From positions 62,001 through 126,000 of the forward strand of contig CAIYAP010000007.1 of the NCBI GenBank assembly GCA_903924205.1: a stretch of DNA of 64,000 bases. The letters run 5' to 3'. The translations under genes were made by a program, and so were the position numbers. The DNA is from an uncultured Actinomycetes bacterium (lineage in GTDB: Bacteria > Actinomycetota > Acidimicrobiia > Acidimicrobiales > RAAP-2). The notes below the pieces were generated by a model. That model searched no databases, was not told where the DNA came from, and worked only from the letters and a program-made list of their open reading frames with translations. Each line of letters starts with the position of its first letter. Position 1 is the first letter of the stretch. Below are positions 24,617-37,843 of this stretch, piece after piece.

Positions 24617-26590
24617 CTACCCGTCGTTCTCGCTGTCATCGTTCGCTAATCGAATCTGATTGAGAACATCGCGGAGCATTGCCGCCTCCTCAAAGCGCAA
24701 ATCGGCAGCCGCGGCCAACATCTCACGCTCGACTCTCTCTGCCTCGTCTGCATTGGCGACGAGCGGTGTCGCTGCTTTCACCGGTGCTTCTTCCTTACGA
24801 AGACGACTGAGAATGTCCACCACGTTCTTTGAGACCGTCGTGGGGCTGATCCCATTCTCCGTGTTGTAGGCAATTTGAACCTCGCGTCGACGGGCCGTGG
24901 TGTCGAGCGCGACCTGCATGGCGGGAGTCACCCGGTCGGCGTAGAGGATCGCGCGGCCATGGGAGTTGCGAGCGGCGCGGCCAATGGTTTGGATGAGAGC
25001 GCTCTCAGAGCGCAGGAAGCCCTCTTTGTCGGCATCAAGGATGGCGACAAGGGAAACTTCGGGAAGGTCCAAACCTTCGCGAAGCAAGTTGATACCCACC
25101 AATACATCGAACTCCCCCAATCGCAAGCCTCGGAGAATTTCGACTCGTTCGATCGTGTCAATATCGCTATGCAGATAACGGACCTTAATTCCGTGCTTCA
25201 CCAAGAACGTCGTTAGGTCTTCCGCCATTCGCTTGGTTAACGTCGTGACGATGACGCGTTCTCCCGCTGCCACCACTTGATTGATTTCGTCTCGTAGATG
25301 GTCAATCTGATTCCTGGTAGGGACGATATCGACGACAGGGTCCAGCAAGCCCGTTGGCCGAATCAGCTGTTGCACCATTGCGTCCGACACCTCGCGTTCG
25401 AAAGGCCCTGGAGTTGCCGACACGAAGATCATCTGGGGCACCACGTCCATAAATTCGTCAAAGTTCAGAGGGCGATTGTCCATCGCGCTTGGCAAACGAA
25501 AGCCATGATCAACCAAGGTCGATTTACGTGATCGGTCACCGGCGAATTGCGCTCGAATCTGCGGGACGGCAACGTGCGACTCATCAATCACGACCAGGAG
25601 ATCCTCGGGAAAGTAATCAAGCAGGGTGTAGGGGCGCTCGCCGCTGCTGCGGCCGTCCAAGTGTGCCGAATAGTTCTCGACTCCTGGGCAGGTCCCCGTC
25701 TCTTGAAGCATTTCTAGGTCATGTTCAGTGCGCATCTTTAGTCGCTGCGCCTCCAATAGTTTGCCCCCCGCCTCAAATGTCCGCAGTTGGCGCCCGAGTT
25801 CCTCCTCGATGCTTCTCACGGCACGGTGCAGCGTCTCGTCACCGGTGCTGTAGTGACTTGCCGCGAATACCGTGACGCTGTCTACCCGGCCGTTCACCTC
25901 CTGCGTCAACGGGTTAAAAAACACAATTGATTCGATTTCGTCATCAAAGAAACTGATGCGCAGCGCCTCACGGTCGTAGGCGGGCTGAAGTTCCAACGTG
26001 TCGCCGCGAACGCGGAATGTTCCGCGCTCGACCACCAAGTCGTTTCTCGAGTACTGCATATCGACCAAACGGCGAAGCAGTTCACGCTGCTCGAACTTGT
26101 CCCCCACCGACATGGCCAGCATTCCCCGCCGATATTCAATGGGTGAACCCAAACCGTAGATACAGGAAACGGAGGCCACCACCACGGTGTCACGTCGCGT
26201 CAGGAGTGACGACGTCGCTGCGTGGCGCAGTCGGTCGATTTCCTCGTTAATTGAGCTGTCTTTTTCGATATAGGTATCGCTGGAAGGCAGGTACGCCTCC
26301 GGCTGGTAGTAGTCGTAATAGGAAACGAAGAACTCCACGCGATTGGACGGAAGCATTTCTCGAAGCTCGGCAGCGAGTTGCGCAGCCAACGACTTATTTG
26401 GCTCCAAGATCAACGTGGGTCGTTGCAATTTCTCGATAGTCCATGCAATCGTCGCGGTCTTGCCACTGCCGGTGATTCCCTCGAGCGTCTGGTATCTCAA
26501 TCCGTTGCGGGCTCCTTCCGTCAAAGCCGCAATCGCGGTCGGCTGATCTCCGCAGGGCAGAAATGGTGACTCAACTAGGAAGTTCGTCAT
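24617..26590 (-). CDS. uvrB: Excinuclease ABC subunit B
   Basis: '[18 protein letters not shown]', '[36 protein letters not shown]', C-terminal UVR motif. Confidence 0.98.
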
Positions 26591-27171
26591 GACAACTCCA
26601 CCAGTAACCGGTCAATATTTCCGTAGGTAGTGAGAAGGTCATTTGAATTATCAATGATCGCGTCAAACGCTTCATTAGGTAGCGCCAGCGCCTCCTGTGC
26701 CGCAATTCGTCTTTCGGCGTCACCGACATCCATTTTTCGGCTCGTCGTTAAGCGCTGCAAAACAACATCCTCCCGCGCGCGAACCAGCCACACCGCTGTC
26801 AACGAAAACAACGAGCGATGTTCTGGTCGATAGAGGGGCAAAGCAACGGCGACGACAGAGCTGGAGCTCTCTTCGCAACGGCGAAGAATTTCCACACCGA
26901 TCGCCAAGTGCGTGATGCGATTGAGCCGACGGAGAGCGGCGGGGTCACGGAACACCACATCCGCTAGTACCGCTCGATTCAGCGTCGAATCCGTCGCCAC
27001 GATGCCCCGTCCAAAGGCATCGATTAGTTGGCGGTACGCCGGCTGTCCCGGGGAGACCACGTCTCGCGCCACAATGTCGGCATCGACAATCACAATGCCC
27101 CTCTTGGCGAGGTAATCGGTGACGGCCGTCTTACCAGAACCAATTCCTCCGGCAATTGCAATACGTTGCAT
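26587..27171 (-). CDS. coaE: Dephospho-CoA kinase
   Basis: '[36 protein letters not shown]'. Confidence 0.94.
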
Positions 27172-27225: not shown

Positions 27226-30200
27226 GTGCCATTAGCCCGTTCTCGCCCGAAATTTCGCTGGGACACATGGATAATTGCACTTCTGGCTTATGCCCCCTTC
27301 CTGTATTCGGAACCCGGACGGATAAGTGCGGACACGAAGGCGTACCTTTATTTGGACCCCGCCCACTTGCTGTCCACTGCGGCGTCGATGTGGAACTCGG
27401 ACCAAGGGTTTGGAATGGTTACCCACCAGAACATTGGGTACCTGTTCCCCATGGGCCCGTATTACCTCTTGTTTCACTACCTAGGCGTCTCCGCGTGGAT
27501 CGCACAGCGCTTCTGGATGGGAAGTCTTCTATTCCTCGCCGCTCTCGGGGTGAGGCGTTTTCTAGAGGAGATGGGGATCGGTCGACAGGCTGCATGGGCC
27601 GCGGCGATTCCTTACATGCTGTCGCCGTACATATTGGTGAACATAGACCGCACCACGGCGATCTTGATGCCATGGGCCGGGCTTGGCTGGATGATGTTGT
27701 ACGCCGTCCGTGCTGCTCGTCAGGGAGGGTGGCGCTACGCCGCGCGCTTCGCCATCGTCCTCGCTCTCGTGGGTGGCGTCAATGCCACCAGTGTCCTCCT
27801 GGTCGGTCTCGCCCCGGCCACATGGCTCGTCTACGCCGCCTTGACCGGCGACATCTCGTGGAAGCGAGCGACGTCGGTCGCGGCCAAGATTTCCGGACTT
27901 GGACTACTGGTCAGCCTCTGGTGGATTGGTGGGCTGTGGGCTGAGGGTGCTTTCGGCGTCAATATTCTCAATTACACCGAGTCAATTACCACCGTGGCAT
28001 CCACGTCAACGACGAGCGAAGTGCTCCGGGGCCTTGGTTATTGGTATTTCTACGGTTCGGATCACATCCAGCCGTGGACAATGGCCTCGGGCCCGTATGA
28101 GACCAATGCCCTGGTCGTGGCCGCGAGTTTCTTTCTTCCCGCCGCGGGCATCGTCAGCAGCCTTTTCGTGCGTTGGCGTTATCGGGGCTACTTCGTGGCG
28201 ATAGGTCTGATGGGAATCCTCCTCGCGGTTGGCGCATACCCCATTTCATCACCGGCGCCGGTGGGAGCGGTGATGAAATGGCTGGGGCTTCACACCACGG
28301 TGGGTCTCGCCATGAGGTCAACCAATCGAGTCATGCCCCTCGTGCTCTTATCTTTTGGCACCTTGTTGGCGGCGGCCATTCATGCGCGTTCGGAGCGCAA
28401 ACATTCATCTCCACGTCGGATGCTTCGCATCACGGCACTTGCCAGCATTCTTGCTATTCAGCCCCTCTTTGCGGGTACCGCGCTCGCGCGTAACTTGAGT
28501 TCTCCGAGCACCTTGCCCACCTACGTGACGGCGGCGGCGAAGGACCTCAACACCGGTCCTGCCACGTCGACTGTTCTCGGACTACCGGGGGTTGACTTCG
28601 GTAACTACCGCTACGGCGCCTATGTGGATTCGGTTTGGCCTGGATTGCTGAATCGCCCGTTCGAAACGAACCAAGTGACACCACAGGGCGAGAATGCGAG
28701 CGTCGATCTGATTCGAGCTCTCGATGGACGATTCCAGGATGGCTACGCCCAACCTCAAGCCATTGCGCCCATAGCTCGACTCTTCTCGGCGGGAGACATC
28801 TTGCTGCAGATGGATATTCAGTACGAGCGTTTCAACTCACCCACTCCGGCGTACATGTGGAGCCTCTTCTCGCCAACTCCTGCTGGCCTCAAACTGGTGA
28901 AGACTTACGGACCAGTTTTGAAGGACCAGGTCAGCGATGGTCGATACATCAATGAACAGATGCTGAATCTGCCCTCTCACTTCAAGTGGCCCGCATCACT
29001 GGCAGTATTCAAGGTCACCGGCGCGCGAACCTTGACGCGCAGCGAGACGTTGTCGGGGTCCTACCTCGTCGCGGGGTCGGGTATGGGACTCGTCAATCTC
29101 GCCACGATGGGACTTTTAAACGACAATCATTCCCTCTGGTACGAGGGTGCCATCGGGCCGAAAGTGGTCGCAGACCTGATTAAGGCCAATGCCTCTCTCG
29201 TTCTCACCGACACCAATGCCAAGGTGCACTCCACCTTTGGCACGCTCAGTTCGTCTGCGGGCTACATCGAGGCGCTCAATGAGCTTCCAACAAATACGTC
29301 AGAGGAAGAACACGCACTGTACGCCTTTGAGCCGGGATCCGGCAATCAGACGGTGGCTGTTCTCCATGGCATTTCGGCCGTCGGTGCTTCCAGTTACGGC
29401 AACCCCATCGCTAACGTGCCCGAACACATGCCCTTTTATGCCGTCGACGGTAATCCGAATACGTCGTGGCAGACTGCCGCGTTCCACAAGGCCGTTGGGG
29501 AATATCTCACTATCCACGCGACCTCTCCGCACATCGTCTCTCGAATTCACTTCATCCAGTCCCAGAACCCCACCGAGAACCGATGGATCACCAAGGTGTC
29601 CATCAAGGTCGGCAGTCGCACCTACCATCGTGTCCTCACTGAGCAATCGTGGGGCGTCACCGGCCAATGGATAGATATTCCACCAACTCGCGGTACGACA
29701 ATGACCATCACCATTGATGACACGACGCCTATTTATGTGCCGCTCAAACAGCAGTCGGCCGTTGGCTTTTCGGAAGTATTCGCCCCAGGATTCGGGAACG
29801 CCACGCGTTCGCTTCTCCTGCCGACATCTTTGCTCAATCGAGTCGGATCCGCCGCGCGGACATCACCTTTAATTATCGACATGTCGAGGATTCGCGTCGC
29901 AGCAACCCCTCCTCGAACGGACCCCGAGTTGACCTTGAATCGAGCCTTCACACTCCCGTACTCTCGAACCTTTTCGTTCAGGGGAACGGCACAGCTCTAC
30001 GCGCAGAACTCCGATGAAGGTATCAACTCCATTTTGGGTCTGCGGCCACGTACTGTCGGCATCCCCATTGTCTCTACCGCGGCATCAACCAGGATGGTCG
30101 GTGCGCCATTGTCGGCATCGCGAGCCGCCTTCGACGGACTCGTGAGCACTGCGTGGCAGAACGCATTTCAAACCGGTGTCGGCCAAACCATCAGCGAGCA

Positions 30201-31455
30201 CATTGCGTCCCCACTCACAGTGTCGCAAGCAACCTTCGCCGTTCTCAATGACGGACGTCACGCAGTTCCGACCTCGATCAGAATCTCTTCCGGCGACTCC
30301 TCACGGGTGGTCAGTCTGCCCTTCACGCTCAACCCGAAAGCCACCGAGGGTGCTACCAACAGCGTCACCGTTCACTTCGCGCCTTTGACTGGCAGCACGT
30401 TCAGCTACACCATTGAAACGATCATGGGCAACCCCATCGTTGACCGCATCACTGGAGGCGTCAATCACACGCCCCTGGGTATCGCAGAAATCTCCGTGCC
30501 GGGAATCGCCACAATCTCCACGCCCACCACCATCAATACCGGCTGCCTATCGAATGTTCTTCGCATCGACGGCCATGATGTTCCCGTCACGATATCTGGC
30601 ACGCTGGACGAGGTTCAGCGGGGCCTCCCTCTTAGCGTCTCGAGCTGTGCTTCATCCGTCACTTTGTCGGCAGGAATGCATGATGTTGAATCCTCCCTGG
30701 GGGCGATGAGTGGCTTTCAGCTAGACGACCTGGTCATGACGTCGCGCGTCGCCCCCCAGCCCTCGGTGACGGCGATCAGCGATCTTGCGGGTAGGTGGCA
30801 AAGCCGGTCTCAGGTAACGGCGAACGTGGAACCACGCGACGGCGGCCGAGTACTCGTTCTCGGACAAAGCATGTCCCCTGGCTGGCGAGCCACGTTGAAT
30901 GGGAAAGACCTCGGGGCACCGCTACTCGTCGATGGAGCGTCGACAGGATGGATTCTCCCGTCGCACATCAGCCCACACAGCACTGTCGTGATGTCATGGT
31001 CCCCGCAAGACCGAGTCAATCTTCTCTTGTGGAGCTCTGCCGGCGGTCTCGTTCTCGTCGTTCTCATGGCCGTGGGACGTCGACGCTCCCGTCTAGAACC
31101 CATGGATGGCCCCGTGTGGCGCTCTGATCGCATTCGAAATGGCCGCCCCCACCCCATGGCCATTGTGCTCGCTGTCGCGTCGGGCGTCCTGGTGGCGTGG
31201 TGGGCACCCCTCGCGGTTTGCGTCATCCTGCTGTGGTGCCTCTATCGGCGCTCCTGGAATTGGTTTAGCGTGGCCAGCATGGTGTCCTTGGCCTTGAGTG
31301 TGCTCCTCACGATCTACGCAACCCTGCGAAACTTCCCGCAAGACATTTCCTGGCCGACTCACATCCACTTCGCCGAGGCCTGTGCAGCATGGGCGCTGGT
31401 GTTTTGGGTGTGCGCCATTGCCTTCGCTCCTCATCGGCCGCGTGAGGACTGGTAG
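27226..31455 (+). CDS. AftD-like alpha-(1->3)-arabinofuranosyltransferase family membrane protein (DUF3367-type N-terminus, discoidin/CBM-like modules)
   Basis: 1409 aa; 'LLSTAASMWNSDQGFGMVTHQNIGYLFPMGPYYLLFHYLGVSAWIAQRFWMGSLLFLAALGVRRFL' matches the AftD N-terminal signature; two 'DGNPNTSWQTAAF...' / 'DGLVSTAWQNAFQ...' discoidin-like repeats; C-terminal TM helices; GTG start. Confidence 0.82.
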   Translation: MPLARSRPKFRWDTWIIALLAYAPFLYSEPGRISADTKAYLYLDPAHLLSTAASMWNSDQGFGMVTHQNIGYLFPMGPYYLLFHYLGVSAWIAQRFWMGSLLFLAALGVRRFLEEMGIGRQAAWAAAIPYMLSPYILVNIDRTTAILMPWAGLGWMMLYAVRAARQGGWRYAARFAIVLALVGGVNATSVLLVGLAPATWLVYAALTGDISWKRATSVAAKISGLGLLVSLWWIGGLWAEGAFGVNILNYTESITTVASTSTTSEVLRGLGYWYFYGSDHIQPWTMASGPYETNALVVAASFFLPAAGIVSSLFVRWRYRGYFVAIGLMGILLAVGAYPISSPAPVGAVMKWLGLHTTVGLAMRSTNRVMPLVLLSFGTLLAAAIHARSERKHSSPRRMLRITALASILAIQPLFAGTALARNLSSPSTLPTYVTAAAKDLNTGPATSTVLGLPGVDFGNYRYGAYVDSVWPGLLNRPFETNQVTPQGENASVDLIRALDGRFQDGYAQPQAIAPIARLFSAGDILLQMDIQYERFNSPTPAYMWSLFSPTPAGLKLVKTYGPVLKDQVSDGRYINEQMLNLPSHFKWPASLAVFKVTGARTLTRSETLSGSYLVAGSGMGLVNLATMGLLNDNHSLWYEGAIGPKVVADLIKANASLVLTDTNAKVHSTFGTLSSSAGYIEALNELPTNTSEEEHALYAFEPGSGNQTVAVLHGISAVGASSYGNPIANVPEHMPFYAVDGNPNTSWQTAAFHKAVGEYLTIHATSPHIVSRIHFIQSQNPTENRWITKVSIKVGSRTYHRVLTEQSWGVTGQWIDIPPTRGTTMTITIDDTTPIYVPLKQQSAVGFSEVFAPGFGNATRSLLLPTSLLNRVGSAARTSPLIIDMSRIRVAATPPRTDPELTLNRAFTLPYSRTFSFRGTAQLYAQNSDEGINSILGLRPRTVGIPIVSTAASTRMVGAPLSASRAAFDGLVSTAWQNAFQTGVGQTISEHIASPLTVSQATFAVLNDGRHAVPTSIRISSGDSSRVVSLPFTLNPKATEGATNSVTVHFAPLTGSTFSYTIETIMGNPIVDRITGGVNHTPLGIAEISVPGIATISTPTTINTGCLSNVLRIDGHDVPVTISGTLDEVQRGLPLSVSSCASSVTLSAGMHDVESSLGAMSGFQLDDLVMTSRVAPQPSVTAISDLAGRWQSRSQVTANVEPRDGGRVLVLGQSMSPGWRATLNGKDLGAPLLVDGASTGWILPSHISPHSTVVMSWSPQDRVNLLLWSSAGGLVLVVLMAVGRRRSRLEPMDGPVWRSDRIRNGRPHPMAIVLAVASGVLVAWWAPLAVCVILLWCLYRRSWNWFSVASMVSLALSVLLTIYATLRNFPQDISWPTHIHFAEACAAWALVFWVCAIAFAPHRPREDW

Positions 31456-31458
31456 CAC

Positions 31459-32409
31459 ATGTCGTGGTGGAAGAGCAATGCCGATGGCAGTGACTATGCA
31501 ACGCCGTCGACCGCGCTGGAGCCGGTCAAGCGGCGAGGCCTGAACGTTCCGCCACAGGTCTCATACGACCATTCGGACGAGAAACGCGGGAGCCTGATCG
31601 TTGCGCCTGATGGACTCCCCCGGTTGCTTGCGTTGATACGTGCTCAACGGATGCGCTCTGATAACAGGACCTTGGCGGAAGACATCATTGCGACGGACTT
31701 CATGACGCAGATTGTCGGTCGCGCCACAATCTTCAATCGTGACGTTCTCGAGATTGCCGACACGGACAACGAGTTCTATCTGGGCCTGATGGAACGAGGG
31801 GCAATCGTCACACGTATGCGGCCCGAGTTAACGGTAAACCGACGCATTGGCGAAGCCATGAGGGCGCGTGTCTCGCCATCCGACGCCACCAAGTTCAGCG
31901 CTCCGAACATCCCCTCGGACGATGACTCGTTCGACACGGTAGTGGCCACGAACATCGTGGCGATGTCTCCACGGCCAAGCGACACCTTGAATGAGCTAGC
32001 GCGGGTGTTGAGACCCGGCGGAACTTTATATCTTCAACAAATATTGTGGTGGTCGCCCTCGGGCGGTCGCGAAACGTCACCATGGCACCTCCTGTCAGGC
32101 AAGTTTGCTCGGCGGAGATACCAGCGGTCCCACGGATACGCTCCCGCACACTTCTACGGAGAAAATCTTTTTCGGGTTTCGCTGGGGTCGATGCTTCGTG
32201 CCGCAAAAAGGCATCCCGATTTCGCCATTGTCTCAATGCATCCCCGTTACGGACGAGCAACGAGTCGCTGGGTGCTGCGACTGCCCCTGGTGCGTGAATT
32301 TCTCACACTCAACGTGACCATTATTTTGGAGAAGTCGCCTTTCGCCCACGGGCGTGAACCGATGATGCCAGAGCCTCAAAGAGTTCTAGGGCCGTTCGAT
32401 CCCAGGTAA
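31459..32409 (+). CDS. Class I SAM-dependent methyltransferase
   Basis: 'DDDSFDTVVATNIVAMSPRPSDTLNELARVLRPGGTLYLQQI' Methyltransf_11-like; 3 bp after the AftD-like gene. Confidence 0.78.
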   Translation: MSWWKSNADGSDYATPSTALEPVKRRGLNVPPQVSYDHSDEKRGSLIVAPDGLPRLLALIRAQRMRSDNRTLAEDIIATDFMTQIVGRATIFNRDVLEIADTDNEFYLGLMERGAIVTRMRPELTVNRRIGEAMRARVSPSDATKFSAPNIPSDDDSFDTVVATNIVAMSPRPSDTLNELARVLRPGGTLYLQQILWWSPSGGRETSPWHLLSGKFARRRYQRSHGYAPAHFYGENLFRVSLGSMLRAAKRHPDFAIVSMHPRYGRATSRWVLRLPLVREFLTLNVTIILEKSPFAHGREPMMPEPQRVLGPFDPR

Positions 32410-33493
32410 GTTCACCGGCGTACGCCACCGCCCCGCGACGCAAACTCTCTAACAAATCGTTATCAGCAATAACTCGAGAAATCGTGCTTGCGAGGGATGC
32501 GTAGGGATCGACAAGAACTCCTGACACCCCATCTCGCACCGAGTCGCGGTGTCCAGCGATATCAGTGGCTACCGACGGGGTGCCGCATTTCGCCGCTTCC
32601 GTCAACGTCATGCCCCAGCCCTCACGCAGGGAACGCGAGACGACCAGCCAGGCAGATTGATACAACGCCACCAGTTCCTCGTCTGAGACGTGGCCAGCAA
32701 AAGTCACCGCATGAGAAATACCCAATGTGGCTACGAGGGTCTCGAGATCGCTGCGCAGAAAGCCTTCGCCCACCACCACAAAACGTGCCGCGGGAATCTC
32801 CGCATGAACAGCGGCGAAATCGTGCATGAGTAGATCGAATCGTTTGACCGGAGCGAGTCGGCCAACCGCCACGATGAGCGGAATGTCGCTGCGCGATCCC
32901 CCGGTCTGAAATTTGTCGGCAATCCCCGGGGGAATCACTCGGACTCGTTTGAGATGGAGCCTCTCATCGATTTCGTGGGCGCTGGAGTTTGACAAGGTGC
33001 ACACGGTGGTTCGGCGATACGCCAGCGGGAAAATTCGATGTTCAAGGAACCACCCCACCCTCGCGAGTCGTGGCCCCAGCGTCATTTTCCACATGTCGGC
33101 GTGCACGTGATGCAACCAGGTGACGCTTCGCCGACGCGCCCAGACAGGCGTCAAGAACGGTACGCCATTCCAAATGTCAACGAAAGCGTCGTAATGGCGT
33201 CGGTCACGACGGATACCTCGAACAAAGGCGTCAGCGAAAACTTGATAGCGCCCCGAACGTCGCACCACTCGGTAGCCGTCTCGCTCGCGCTCTTTCGGTC
33301 GACCCGCCACAGCAGACGTCCTCAGCGTCACCGCCAGTCCCGCCGCGGCCCACCGACGAAGAACTTCGTCGGCATGGATTTCGCTGCCACCCGCTTCAGC
33401 ATCATCTAAATCACGCCATGCAAAGGCCTTTATGGACTTGATATGTGACGAGGCGATCAGTGTGGACAATTGTGTCGTGGCCGACTCTGGCAT
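32321..33493 (-). CDS. Family 4 glycosyltransferase
   Basis: 'IVAVGRLAPVKRFDLLMHDFAAV' and 'SLREGWGMTLTEAAKCGTPSVATDIAGHRDSVRDGVSGVLV'. Confidence 0.9.
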   Translation of the reverse strand: MPESATTQLSTLIASSHIKSIKAFAWRDLDDAEAGGSEIHADEVLRRWAAAGLAVTLRTSAVAGRPKERERDGYRVVRRSGRYQVFADAFVRGIRRDRRHYDAFVDIWNGVPFLTPVWARRRSVTWLHHVHADMWKMTLGPRLARVGWFLEHRIFPLAYRRTTVCTLSNSSAHEIDERLHLKRVRVIPPGIADKFQTGGSRSDIPLIVAVGRLAPVKRFDLLMHDFAAVHAEIPAARFVVVGEGFLRSDLETLVATLGISHAVTFAGHVSDEELVALYQSAWLVVSRSLREGWGMTLTEAAKCGTPSVATDIAGHRDSVRDGVSGVLVDPYASLASTISRVIADNDLLESLRRGAVAYAGELTWDRTALELFEALASSVHARGRKATSPK

Positions 33494-33502
33494 ATCGCCA
33501 AC

Positions 33503-34738
33503 TTACTCGCGTTGTCGAAGGTATTCGGAAGCAACGCCACCAATGATGACCAACATCACTACTACCTGAACGGCGAGGTCCCACCTCGCGGTGGTGCCGA
33601 AATTCCCTCCCGCCGCGGACAAGATTGACAGCGATCCCAGGGATAGGACGATCAACACGACGGCGTGCCAGCGGTAACCCGTCGCCAATAAATACGTATT
33701 TCCCAATGTCGTTAATGCAAGTGCAGTCATTGCGATGCTCAAGGGCAGCAGAGCTGTCGACGCAGATCCGTATCGCGAACCAAATACTGCGTTAATGAGA
33801 TGGGGGCCAACGGTTGCGCTGACCGTTACGAGAAAGACTCCTGCCGATAAAACCAGAGTGAAGGCAATGAAAAGTTGACGCGTGGCCAGCTTTCCACGTC
33901 CCGCATCAAGAACCGCCTCCGGCAACAGAAAGCCACCGATGATGACAGCTCCGTACACGATCGTCTTAGCGATCTGCGATGCCGCCGAATAGCCCCCCAA
34001 GGGTCCCTGGTGCACGTGCCCCAGTGCAAAGATGTCAGCAAATTGCAACAACGACAGGGAACCAAGAGCGCCTAAAGCAATCAGGAGATCGAGTGTGATT
34101 CCCGTGTGCTCCAACACGATCTCAGTGACACTTCCACGAGGAACTCGATGACGCGCCTGAACGCGCGTGGCTAACTCTGCCAGCAAAAGGCCAACCAACA
34201 CTGCGGTGACGCCGTGGGCACTGAGCGCCATCATCAGCACGAGCCTGGCGACACCCTCAAAAGCAATATTGAAAGCTAAGCCTCGATAATCCTGGCGAAC
34301 CTGTAGCAGCGCACGATCGACCGACAGGACGCCCCAGATAACGCCCGCCAAAGCAACGGCCGACACCGCAATCCATGATCGATTGCCTAGCCATTCGCCC
34401 ACGAACCGTGACGCCGCAACGAGGGCTCCCGCAGTCGGCAACATGACGCGCCAGACGCGGCGGTACAGGGTGCGCTGCCACGCCAACATGGTGGTGTCGT
34501 CGTGGTTCAATACGTAGTGAGCAGCTCGGCGAACGACGGCCACTCCGAGAGCTGATCCCGGCAGGGCAACCAGGAAGAAAATTGATGAAACCTGCGTGAA
34601 CGCCCCGTAGGCAGCCGTGCTGAAAGGATGCGCGATATAGAGCGTGAAGAGCGCGTTGAGCACGTTGGCGACGAGCCCAGCCACTGCGACCATGACGGCG
34701 CTCGTCAGCGCCTTCGACGTGACAGAGCGAGACGACAA
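33503..34738 (-). CDS. Oligosaccharide flippase / polysaccharide biosynthesis family membrane protein
   Basis: 411 aa, about 12 hydrophobic segments, MATE/MOP-like N-terminus ('GLVANVLNALFTLYIAHPFSTAAYGAFTQVSSIFFLVALPGSALGVAVVRRA'); apparent TTG start. Confidence 0.7.
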   Translation of the reverse strand: MSSRSVTSKALTSAVMVAVAGLVANVLNALFTLYIAHPFSTAAYGAFTQVSSIFFLVALPGSALGVAVVRRAAHYVLNHDDTTMLAWQRTLYRRVWRVMLPTAGALVAASRFVGEWLGNRSWIAVSAVALAGVIWGVLSVDRALLQVRQDYRGLAFNIAFEGVARLVLMMALSAHGVTAVLVGLLLAELATRVQARHRVPRGSVTEIVLEHTGITLDLLIALGALGSLSLLQFADIFALGHVHQGPLGGYSAASQIAKTIVYGAVIIGGFLLPEAVLDAGRGKLATRQLFIAFTLVLSAGVFLVTVSATVGPHLINAVFGSRYGSASTALLPLSIAMTALALTTLGNTYLLATGYRWHAVVLIVLSLGSLSILSAAGGNFGTTARWDLAVQVVVMLVIIGGVASEYLRQRE

Positions 34739-36211
34739 TTACGGGCGCTTGGGGAGAATCGGAGCGTCTCGGCCCGTTCCGGATGTTATGGCCTTTCCGG
34801 ACGTCTCGTGATATTCCTCTTCCACATTGACTGCCCAGATATCGTTCTGCGCGCCAAAGATGTTGTCCACGGTCAACATGGCCGTCAGCATCGAGTGGTC
34901 AGTGTTGTTGTACTTGTGCATACCATTTCGTCCGACCAAGTGAACATTCGGAATGTTCTGCGCAAGAAACCCATTGACTACTTCAACATTCGCCTTGTAG
35001 TCAGAGTCATAGTACGGATAGGCCTTCGGCATCCGGAACACGAAACCCTGCTCGACGTCGCTGGCGTTAACGAGACCGAGGAACTCGAGTTCGCGCTTGC
35101 CACGCTCAATAAGGTCTTCATCGGAAGAGTTCCACAGGTCGTCTCCTTCAAAAACGAAGTATTCGAGACCCAGGCAAGTGCGTCCTTCTTTAACCAGATA
35201 AGGAGACCAGGATCCGAAGTTTTGGATACGCCCCACCTTCACTTCGGAGGCGTGGATATAAATCCAGTTATCTGGGAAAGAACGAGCCTCCGGCACTACG
35301 AGGGCCACGGTGAGGAAGTCACGGTAACGAAGATCGTGACCCGCTCGCAATACTTCGCTTGGGAGCGGCGGGTCGAACGCGTCGACAAGTTGAGCCATCG
35401 GCATTGATGAGATGACGTGAGAGACCGGCTGCACCTTGCTTGAGCCATCTTTGTTCGTCACCGTCAATGCGGTCGCCGAACCTGCCGTCCATGAGATCTT
35501 GATGACTCGCGAGTTCAACTCGACCGTCCCCCCGCCCTGCGTCACCAGGTCAGCACATCGCTCCCACATCATTCCCGGGCCCAACTTCGGGTACTGGAAC
35601 TCCTCAATAAGGCTGGTGATGTCCTTCTGATTCTTTTTCGGAAGCAGAGCATTCAAAATTGCATTCGAGAGCGACAAACTCTTTACCCGTTGCGCCGCCC
35701 AGTCTGCGGGCATCTCGGCCACCGGAACTCCCCATACCTTTTCGGTGTACGTCTTAAAGAAGCGACGGTAGAGGCGCCAACCGAAGCGCGCCACCAACCA
35801 GTTTTCGTAATTGCTCTGATCCTTCGGAGGAAAGAACTTCGCACGAACGTAGCTCAATACGCTGAGTACGGCTTCCCAGATACCCAAGTTCTTCAGCGCG
35901 TTACTCGCCTTCAACGGGTAGTCGTAGTACTTGCCCTCGTAGAAGATCCGTGACATGCGAGGACGCAACATGAAATCTTCGTCTGGAAGAATTTCGTGCC
36001 ACAAATCTTCAACAACTTGAACCTTCGTGAAAAATCGGTGTCCACCGATATCGAAACGCCATCCGTCTCGCTCCACGGTTCGCGAAATTCCGCCTACAAC
36101 GCTGTCTCCCTCAAAGACGATGGGGTCTCCACCCTTCTTCAAGATTTGGTACGCAGCGGTCAGGCCGGCCGGCCCTCCGCCAATGATCCCGATGGGGGCC
36201 TGTTCGGTCAT
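34739..36211 (-). CDS. FAD-dependent NAD(P)-binding oxidoreductase, UDP-galactopyranose mutase/protoporphyrinogen oxidase-like
   Basis: 'IGIIGGGPAGLTAAYQILKKGGDPIVFEGDSVVGGISRTVERDGWRFDIGGHRFFTK' Rossmann/FAD motif and 'HLVGRNGMHKYNNTDHSMLTAM'. Confidence 0.82.
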   Translation of the reverse strand: MTEQAPIGIIGGGPAGLTAAYQILKKGGDPIVFEGDSVVGGISRTVERDGWRFDIGGHRFFTKVQVVEDLWHEILPDEDFMLRPRMSRIFYEGKYYDYPLKASNALKNLGIWEAVLSVLSYVRAKFFPPKDQSNYENWLVARFGWRLYRRFFKTYTEKVWGVPVAEMPADWAAQRVKSLSLSNAILNALLPKKNQKDITSLIEEFQYPKLGPGMMWERCADLVTQGGGTVELNSRVIKISWTAGSATALTVTNKDGSSKVQPVSHVISSMPMAQLVDAFDPPLPSEVLRAGHDLRYRDFLTVALVVPEARSFPDNWIYIHASEVKVGRIQNFGSWSPYLVKEGRTCLGLEYFVFEGDDLWNSSDEDLIERGKRELEFLGLVNASDVEQGFVFRMPKAYPYYDSDYKANVEVVNGFLAQNIPNVHLVGRNGMHKYNNTDHSMLTAMLTVDNIFGAQNDIWAVNVEEEYHETSGKAITSGTGRDAPILPKRP

Positions 36212-36247: not shown

Positions 36248-37843
36248 CTAGCCAGGCAGGCGGACCAGGGTCATGGACTGGTAGTAACCGACCATGTTTT
36301 GAATGACAAGAGTCGTCGCTTTTCGCTGCGTGATCTTCTGTAGGTCGTGGGCAAAGGACTCGCAGGTCGACTTCAAGGTGTAGCCCGTCGCCCAGGCGAT
36401 GTACAGCGTCTGATGAGGCTTCACGCGACGCGCGACTGCTGCAGCGGCTTTTTGGGGAGTCGTCGAGGCCAACGCGGCCGGATAGTCGTACCAATTGACG
36501 ATTCGAGGATTCGAGTCGAGCCTCGGATACATCACATACTCGGGATTCCCAGTGACGTATCGACTGAGCGAGGGACCCACCTGGTCGGGGCAAACGGCGA
36601 TCAAACTCCCAGACGCATCGCCAGCCGCCGCGATGGCGTGAGCTGCAACGCCGGCTTGAGTGCGCTGGACGCCTACCCCCCATTTGTCGGTCCACAGCAG
36701 AAGCACTGACAGGATCGCCAACGCCAGGAATATCCTTTGCGGCGTTCCGAAAGTGGCCACTCCACGGGCAATGACAAAAACAAACAGAACGGCCACAATT
36801 GAGCTGTAGCGCGGCGCGTAGGCGGAATCAGAGATGTCACACGCCAACATGCCGAGGAAAATGGCGATGGCGCCCACCATTGCGTAGAAGGAAATTTCGC
36901 CTTCAGGACGAATCCTCAGAAGGATGCCCTGTTCGTTTCGTCCCACGACCGCAAATACGCCCAGAGTCATCACTATCACCATGGCCAAGGACAACACAGC
37001 AAAATGCAGCGACGAACTGACGTGCTGGACGCTCTGGTTCACCCACATCCCTACTGGCCAGATGATGAATTGAAAGGGTTGGGGGTGGCGGGCCCACGGC
37101 GTTCCGGTGTGTAGCCGTTGGCTATTGAAAATTGGCAGCCACGGTAACCACAACAAGCCACCGACGCAATAGGCGAACACCTGTCGTCGTAGTTCACGAC
37201 GTCGTGATGAATGCCGAAGCCACTGAAAGAACGCAACGGCCGCCAAGCTGGCGAGGAGGTAGATGGACCAATATTGGGTGTACAAGAGGGCTGCAGAGGT
37301 GAGTGAAAGTCCCACCAACGCCCCACGCGAGGCGGGGTTTTTCTGAAGGCGTACCAAGAAGAGGGCCATGATCGCCACTTCAACTACCACTAGCGAATAC
37401 ATGCGTGTTTCTGTTGAGTAGTACACGGTGAATGGCAACACAGACCCGATGGCCGCCACGATTCGCGCCCGCTGCACATCCCAAGCCTCACGAGCCACGA
37501 TGTACATCACAACGACTGCGGCCACACCGCACACACCCGACAGCGAACGCACTGCGATATCCGAGGTCCCTCCTGCCTTCATCCAAAAATGAAGCAAGAA
37601 GTAGTACAGGGGTGGAGCGCCATCGTGACGCAAGAGGTCAACGATGCCCGTGAGTCCATGGCGCGCGATGTTTACTGACAGGGCTTCATCGAGCCATAAT
37701 TTGCTGGTAGTACGGAACCTCAAGGCAAAGCCGGCAAGGACATCGCCCACGATCACCAGCACCAGTAGACGTGACCACCACGGTTCGAGGGCAAGGCCTA
37801 CGCGTCGCAACATGATTGCAAATGTACTTGACCGTGCCACCAT
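36248..37843 (-). CDS. GT39/PMT-like integral membrane glycosyltransferase
   Basis: 'RTTSKLWLDEALSVNIARHGLTGIVDLLRHDGAPPLYYFLLHFWMKAGGTSDIAVRSLSGVCGVAAV' (DE and HxxxPPLYY motifs typical of ArnT/PMT_2), multiple TM helices. Confidence 0.83.
   Translation of the reverse strand: MVARSSTFAIMLRRVGLALEPWWSRLLVLVIVGDVLAGFALRFRTTSKLWLDEALSVNIARHGLTGIVDLLRHDGAPPLYYFLLHFWMKAGGTSDIAVRSLSGVCGVAAVVVMYIVAREAWDVQRARIVAAIGSVLPFTVYYSTETRMYSLVVVEVAIMALFLVRLQKNPASRGALVGLSLTSAALLYTQYWSIYLLASLAAVAFFQWLRHSSRRRELRRQVFAYCVGGLLWLPWLPIFNSQRLHTGTPWARHPQPFQFIIWPVGMWVNQSVQHVSSSLHFAVLSLAMVIVMTLGVFAVVGRNEQGILLRIRPEGEISFYAMVGAIAIFLGMLACDISDSAYAPRYSSIVAVLFVFVIARGVATFGTPQRIFLALAILSVLLLWTDKWGVGVQRTQAGVAAHAIAAAGDASGSLIAVCPDQVGPSLSRYVTGNPEYVMYPRLDSNPRIVNWYDYPAALASTTPQKAAAAVARRVKPHQTLYIAWATGYTLKSTCESFAHDLQKITQRKATTLVIQNMVGYYQSMTLVRLPG

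Follow-up and report, generated by a model that had tools for sequence, protein, structure and literature searches.

An AftD-like gene outside the mycobacteria

Biosynthesis of decaprenyl-phospho-arabinose (DPA), of which DprE1 is the benzothiazinone target, and the arabinofuranosyltransferase AftD are regarded as defining features of the cell wall in the mycolata. Which donor and which polymer, then, would serve an AftD-like protein in another kind of bacterium? This question is raised by an open reading frame in the window analyzed here, a stretch of 64,000 nucleotides from a freshwater actinobacterium. The named relatives of the gene come from Acidimicrobiia MAGs and isolates (IMCC26256 and Acidiferrimicrobium) and also from Frankia, and they bear out the Acidimicrobiia-type host that an initial annotation, made from the sequence, had supposed. 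That annotation had also stressed the non-mycobacterial setting. This is true of the host, but such a setting is by itself nothing unusual: AftD-like genes occur in Frankia and in roughly 40% of the class, where 48 of 119 genomes have them, often as two copies; in the phylum, 29 of 199 genomes carry the family above the cut-off.

The window gene encodes a GT-C protein with the fold and catalytic pattern of AftD

The open reading frame at positions 27226 to 31455 on the plus strand has a GTG start, no internal stops, and a product of 1409 amino acids. Residues 25 to 686 match positions 6 to 652 of the 661 in the Pfam profile GT-C_AftD (PF11847) with 276.5 bits against a curated cut-off of 26 (E 4.5e-82), and a phmmer search of the PDB aligns residues 20 to 1292 to the AftD structures 6wbx and 6w98 (E about 4e-42). 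The closest named relative is 88% identical across residues 1 to 1409, with neighboring genes in unchanged order. A chance open reading frame is ruled out by the length, the full-length profile match, and this syntenic relative. Thus, the gene is real and the AftD-like observation is confirmed.

The protein consists of a GT-C region (about residues 12 to 660), two CBM/discoidin regions (about 720 to 860 and 955 to 1075), and a C-terminal transmembrane region (1266 to 1400). The initial annotation had proposed at least two discoidin/CBM-like modules, and we found both CBM_AftD (PF24607; 5e-12, best stretch 736 to 858) and two stretches of F5/8 type C (7e-8). The two modules have a D..T.W signature in common (D741/T746/W748 and D970/T975/W977). 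The C-terminal helices that it had also proposed are seen by hydropathy as four strongly hydrophobic segments (1266 to 1284, 1321 to 1339, 1349 to 1367, and 1382 to 1400). These agree with the layout of Corynebacterium glutamicum AftD, in which an N-terminal transmembrane block is accompanied by four C-terminal transmembrane helices (PMC6034362).

To compare the fold with that of AftD, we used an AlphaFold (AF2) model of residues 1 to 689 built on a 44-sequence alignment (pLDDT 82.6, pTM 0.83), which replaced a poor single-sequence model (pLDDT 40). The best Foldseek match of the modeled N-terminal domain in the PDB is mycobacterial AftD (6w98; E 1.5e-20, TMq 0.71), versus a TMq of about 0.4 for the remaining GT-C enzymes in the ranking. 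Asp36, in the motif PGRISADTK after the first transmembrane helix, is invariant across the 44 aligned relatives and is kept in 50 of 51 AftD-family copies, those of the Mycobacteriales included. An essential Asp at a comparable position is common to GT-C(A) enzymes (PMC12041299). E252, R364, R95, N186, and W233 are likewise invariant or almost so, and the pattern D36/T37/K38, R95, W233, E252, and R364 is common to the window protein and the Mycobacteriales copies. Thus, with 6w98 as the best match and D36 invariant, neither the GT-C fold nor the conserved Asp is lacking.

The window gene belongs to a sister clade of mycobacterial AftD

In the tree, the family falls into two clades. The window gene lies in a clade of class copies and others, and the other clade holds families f49 and f61 together with copies presumed to be those of the Mycobacteriales (720 to 950 bits to the Pfam model). 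The window clade is sister to the Mycobacteriales clade with an SH-aLRT of 100, and one class genome, G012, carries one copy of each (L001 and L166). The window gene is an AftD-family member from a sister clade and not an ortholog of mycobacterial AftD (Rv0236c). The reading that it is such an ortholog and does the same job, arabinan branch extension, would explain why the family, fold, CBM layout, and residues are all in common with the mycobacterial enzyme. However, the separate and fully supported clade and the coexistence of both clades in one genome speak against it, as does the lack of matches to the families of the arabinan polymerase Emb and the priming enzyme AftA, and we regard it as very improbable. 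The AftD family name is already in Pfam, and here a member of the family occurs in Acidimicrobiia together with DPA genes and without recognized arabinogalactan genes; our literature search found no paper naming both Acidimicrobi* and arabinofuranosyltransferase.

The host genome carries an intact DPA operon

The initial annotation had left the donor as an open question and had named dprE1, dprE2, and ubiA as the genes to look for. All three are present in the window's genome, where ubiA (encoding DPPRS), dprE1, and dprE2 form one intact run on contig C2 (L028, 8554 to 11566), a different contig from that of the AftD gene. DPPRS scores 315 bits against a cut-off of 207, and this UbiA protein matches the solved DPPRS 8j8j. 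DprE1 passes its cut-off of 500 with 544 bits, and its match to the solved DprE1 4aut reaches 385 bits. DprE2, encoded directly 3' of dprE1, reaches 232 bits, slightly below its cut-off of 250. Of the DPA pathway, the check covered these three proteins. Because the operon is intact in the same genome, the host should make DPA. The open question is thus largely answered as far as supply is concerned, and we infer that the window enzyme probably uses this donor.

In the host DprE1 (L028, 9420 to 10790), an Ala is aligned with the Cys of the mycobacterial motif GWNVCVDFP, which we take to be the benzothiazinone target. It is possible, from this alignment, that the host DprE1 is naturally insensitive to benzothiazinones.

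AftD co-occurs with DPA genes but does not strictly require them

Among 119 genomes of the class, DPPRS is present in 43 of the 48 with AftD versus 11 of the 71 without it (Fisher 2e-16), with DPPRS genes divided between frames or interrupted by a contig end (G100, G107, and G021) scored as present; a strict count above the cut-off gives 41 of 48 versus 10 of 71. Across 199 genomes of the phylum, with three weak AftD matches scored as absent, DprE1 is found in 20 of 27 genomes with AftD and in 9 of 172 without it (4e-15). Both statistics are raw genome counts that ignore kinship. As the Pfam ALO search underestimates DprE1, missing it in G014 and G063, a DprE1 profile was used in the later counts. 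The genes are also physically linked: in seven genomes of the related family f2 (G002, G019, G027, G043, G051, G067, and G118), AftD and dprE1 share a contig and are about 25 kb or less apart, mostly together with DPPRS, dprE2, and a GT4 glycosyltransferase. Homologues of the window's own GT4 gene adjoin the DPA operon in this family (L044, L046, L169, and L170), next to dprE2 in several genomes.

AftD-like genes with the same residues are found without DPPRS or DprE1 in five class genomes (G012, G048, G072, G068, and G071), two of which are from one genus and 96 to 100% complete, and also in two Frankia genomes, f44, f61, and parts of f72 and f75. While some of the MAGs concerned are incomplete, a completeness of 100% is given for G048 and for the f61 genomes. 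Thus, the family does not strictly require DPA. Conversely, four close relatives (G063, G095, G102, and G114) keep the DPA operon and have no AftD. Given both sets of genomes, the presence of AftD is no proof of DPA use. These genomes lend weight to another reading, in which the AftD-fold GT-C uses a different polyprenyl-phosphate sugar, such as a ribofuranose or a hexose, while the DPA of the host feeds other transferases: the catalytic residues are unchanged where DPPRS and DprE1 are lacking (Frankia, f61, and G048/G072), and the DPA operon outlives AftD in relatives. The strong co-occurrence and the finding that AftD and GT4 are linked directly with DPA genes in the seven f2 genomes weigh against that reading, and we consider it unlikely.

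In the two Frankia genomes without DPPRS or DprE1, the AftD-like gene has adjacent homologues of GT4 and of the putative flippase described below (L146, 7824; L157, 2193).

AftD lies in a conserved gene cluster

We compared 93 loci around AftD; because many end at contig ends, the neighbor counts are lower bounds. Upstream, coaE (26587 to 27171, minus strand; PF01121) forms a syntenic anchor with uvrB and uvrA. The order of coaE and uvrB beside AftD is unchanged in more than 40 loci, and coaE is outside the AftD system. A SAM-dependent methyltransferase (31459 to 32409, plus strand; PF08241) directly downstream is present in few relatives (5 of 93 loci) and therefore is probably accessory. The most constant partner of AftD, in 67 of 93 loci, is a GT4 glycosyltransferase (32321 to 33493, minus strand; PF00534). 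Next on the minus strand is a polytopic membrane protein of 411 amino acids (33503 to 34738), a putative glycan flippase by hydrophobicity and context only, which has no match in Pfam or NCBIfam and is conserved beside AftD and GT4, also in Frankia; it was counted in 29 of 93 loci. It is followed by a flavoprotein of the UDP-galactopyranose mutase (UGM) superfamily (34739 to 36211, minus strand; PRK07208/NF005548, 785 bits), a neighbor of AftD in 36 of 93 loci, and by a second GT-C-type membrane glycosyltransferase of the PMT_2 type (36248 to 37843, minus strand; PF13231), which is a cluster partner in 25 loci and had no match in a sequence search of the PDB.

In G102 and G114, the flavoprotein stands alone between coaE and rpsA (L173, 9638 to 11816; L174, 7192 to 9444), and AftD, GT4, and the flippase are gone. 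The tie of the flavoprotein to AftD is therefore loose. Its NF005548 cut-off is exceeded in 54 of 119 class genomes.

The host lacks matches to arabinogalactan families

The initial annotation had expected no arabinogalactan in such a host. Profile searches of six-frame translations, the basis of all our absence calls, gave zero matches in the window's genome to Arabinose_trans (Emb), AftA_C, Glft2_N, and GLF (PF03275), the flavoprotein included in the case of GLF. Matches to these families are rare in the class sample. The searches covered the families of Emb, AftA, GlfT2, and GLF, the last being UDP-galactopyranose mutase; no AftB-specific profile is known to us, and GT87 is too generic a family to stand for AftC. 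With all four of the searched families unmatched, a classical arabinogalactan is unlikely, and the surface polymer of the host is probably another one that contains arabinose and has yet to be described. In the class sample, Arabinose_trans (Emb-type) matches are confined to weak ones in G026 (L025) and G118 (L026).

The flavoprotein in the cluster raises the alternative of an arabinogalactan-like or lipoarabinomannan-like polymer, for which it would serve as a UDP-galactopyranose mutase that has diverged, with GlfT, AftA, and Emb replaced by non-orthologous transferases. Its gene is within the AftD cluster in many genomes, and the protein matches fungal UGM (4u8l; E 5e-21), with R175 and R328, presumably the diphosphate-binding Arg pair of UGM, aligned and kept in at least 97% of cluster homologues. 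Set against this are the zero matches to GLF, Glft2_N, AftA_C, and Arabinose_trans in the host's own genome, the persistence of the flavoprotein in G102 and G114 without AftD, and the f2 genomes, which mostly have AftD without the flavoprotein. We think such a polymer improbable, and since it is compatible with the use of DPA, its probability overlaps that of the explanation we favor.

As to chemistry, our literature search turned up no chemotaxonomic study that reports arabinose for a member of the class. The sugars reported for an Actinospongicola isolate, which may or may not carry AftD, are rhamnose, ribose, mannose, and galactose only.

A proposed model for arabinofuranose transfer in Acidimicrobiia

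The explanation that we favor, and hold to be probable as a whole, is an AftD-family transfer of arabinofuranose (Araf) from DPA onto a glycan other than the mycobacterial galactan, made by the cluster. The fold, catalytic pattern, donor operon, conserved cluster, and lack of arabinogalactan-family matches come from computation, and the donor identity, the acceptor, the linkage, and the flippase and mutase roles are predictions. The DPA would come from the host's own DPPRS (UbiA), DprE1, and DprE2. The AftD-like GT-C most likely takes D-arabinofuranose from this polyprenyl-phospho-arabinose at the outer face of the membrane. Asp36 would act as the base in the transfer, and the discoidin/CBM modules of the same enzyme would hold the acceptor glycan. 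This acceptor would differ from the galactan part of mycobacterial arabinogalactan. Probably the neighboring GT4 begins it, the putative flippase exports it, and the second GT-C elaborates it; the UGM-like flavoenzyme may perhaps provide a furanose sugar.

A broader reading is possible, though we hold it only tentatively. An Araf glycan would be class-wide in Acidimicrobiia, made with DPA, the non-orthologous AftD clade, GT4, the flippase, and the mutase-like flavoenzyme and with no recognized arabinogalactan enzyme, and in Frankia and other lineages the AftD module would work on a non-DPA donor. If this is true, donor use in the AftD family is broader than known.

AftD and DPA genes are conserved and co-occur in a widespread aquatic class without recognized arabinogalactan genes. 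This opens the origin of mycobacterial arabinan to testing and suggests that abundant uncultured bacteria have an arabinose polymer not yet described. Relatives are in culture for cell-wall analysis, and two of them, IMCC26256 and Acidiferrimicrobium sp. IK, have both AftD and DprE1. The genomes with AftD and without DPA genes are natural material for asking if the choice of donor is set by the AftD fold.

Comparison with known systems

The window protein resembles AftD of mycobacteria and corynebacteria (Rv0236c and NCgl2757; 6w98, 6wbx, and 6wby) in its GT-C fold, catalytic pattern, discoidin/CBM modules, and four C-terminal transmembrane helices and in the presence of the DPA pathway in the genome. 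Unlike mycobacterial AftD, to which it is about 22% identical by structural alignment, it belongs to a separate clade, its host has no matches to Emb, AftA, GlfT2, or GLF, and its gene lies in a GT4-flippase-UGM-like-GT-C cluster adjoining uvrB-coaE. The DPA genes of Mycobacterium tuberculosis (Rv3806c, DprE1, and DprE2) have recognizable counterparts, contiguous in the host; in contrast to the M. tuberculosis set, these are on a contig other than that of aftD, and the host DprE1 has Ala for what we take to be the target Cys. A further parallel is found in the Ribf and Xylf O-antigens of Citrobacter, which are made by three-component pentofuranose addition systems (PMC11127046). The GT-Cs of those systems differ from the window protein in that they are GT136 enzymes acting on the lipopolysaccharide O-antigen of Gram-negative bacteria, but they too pair a PRPP-derived, epimerized polyprenyl-phospho-pentofuranose donor with a CBM-bearing GT-C acting outside the membrane (PMC11127046).
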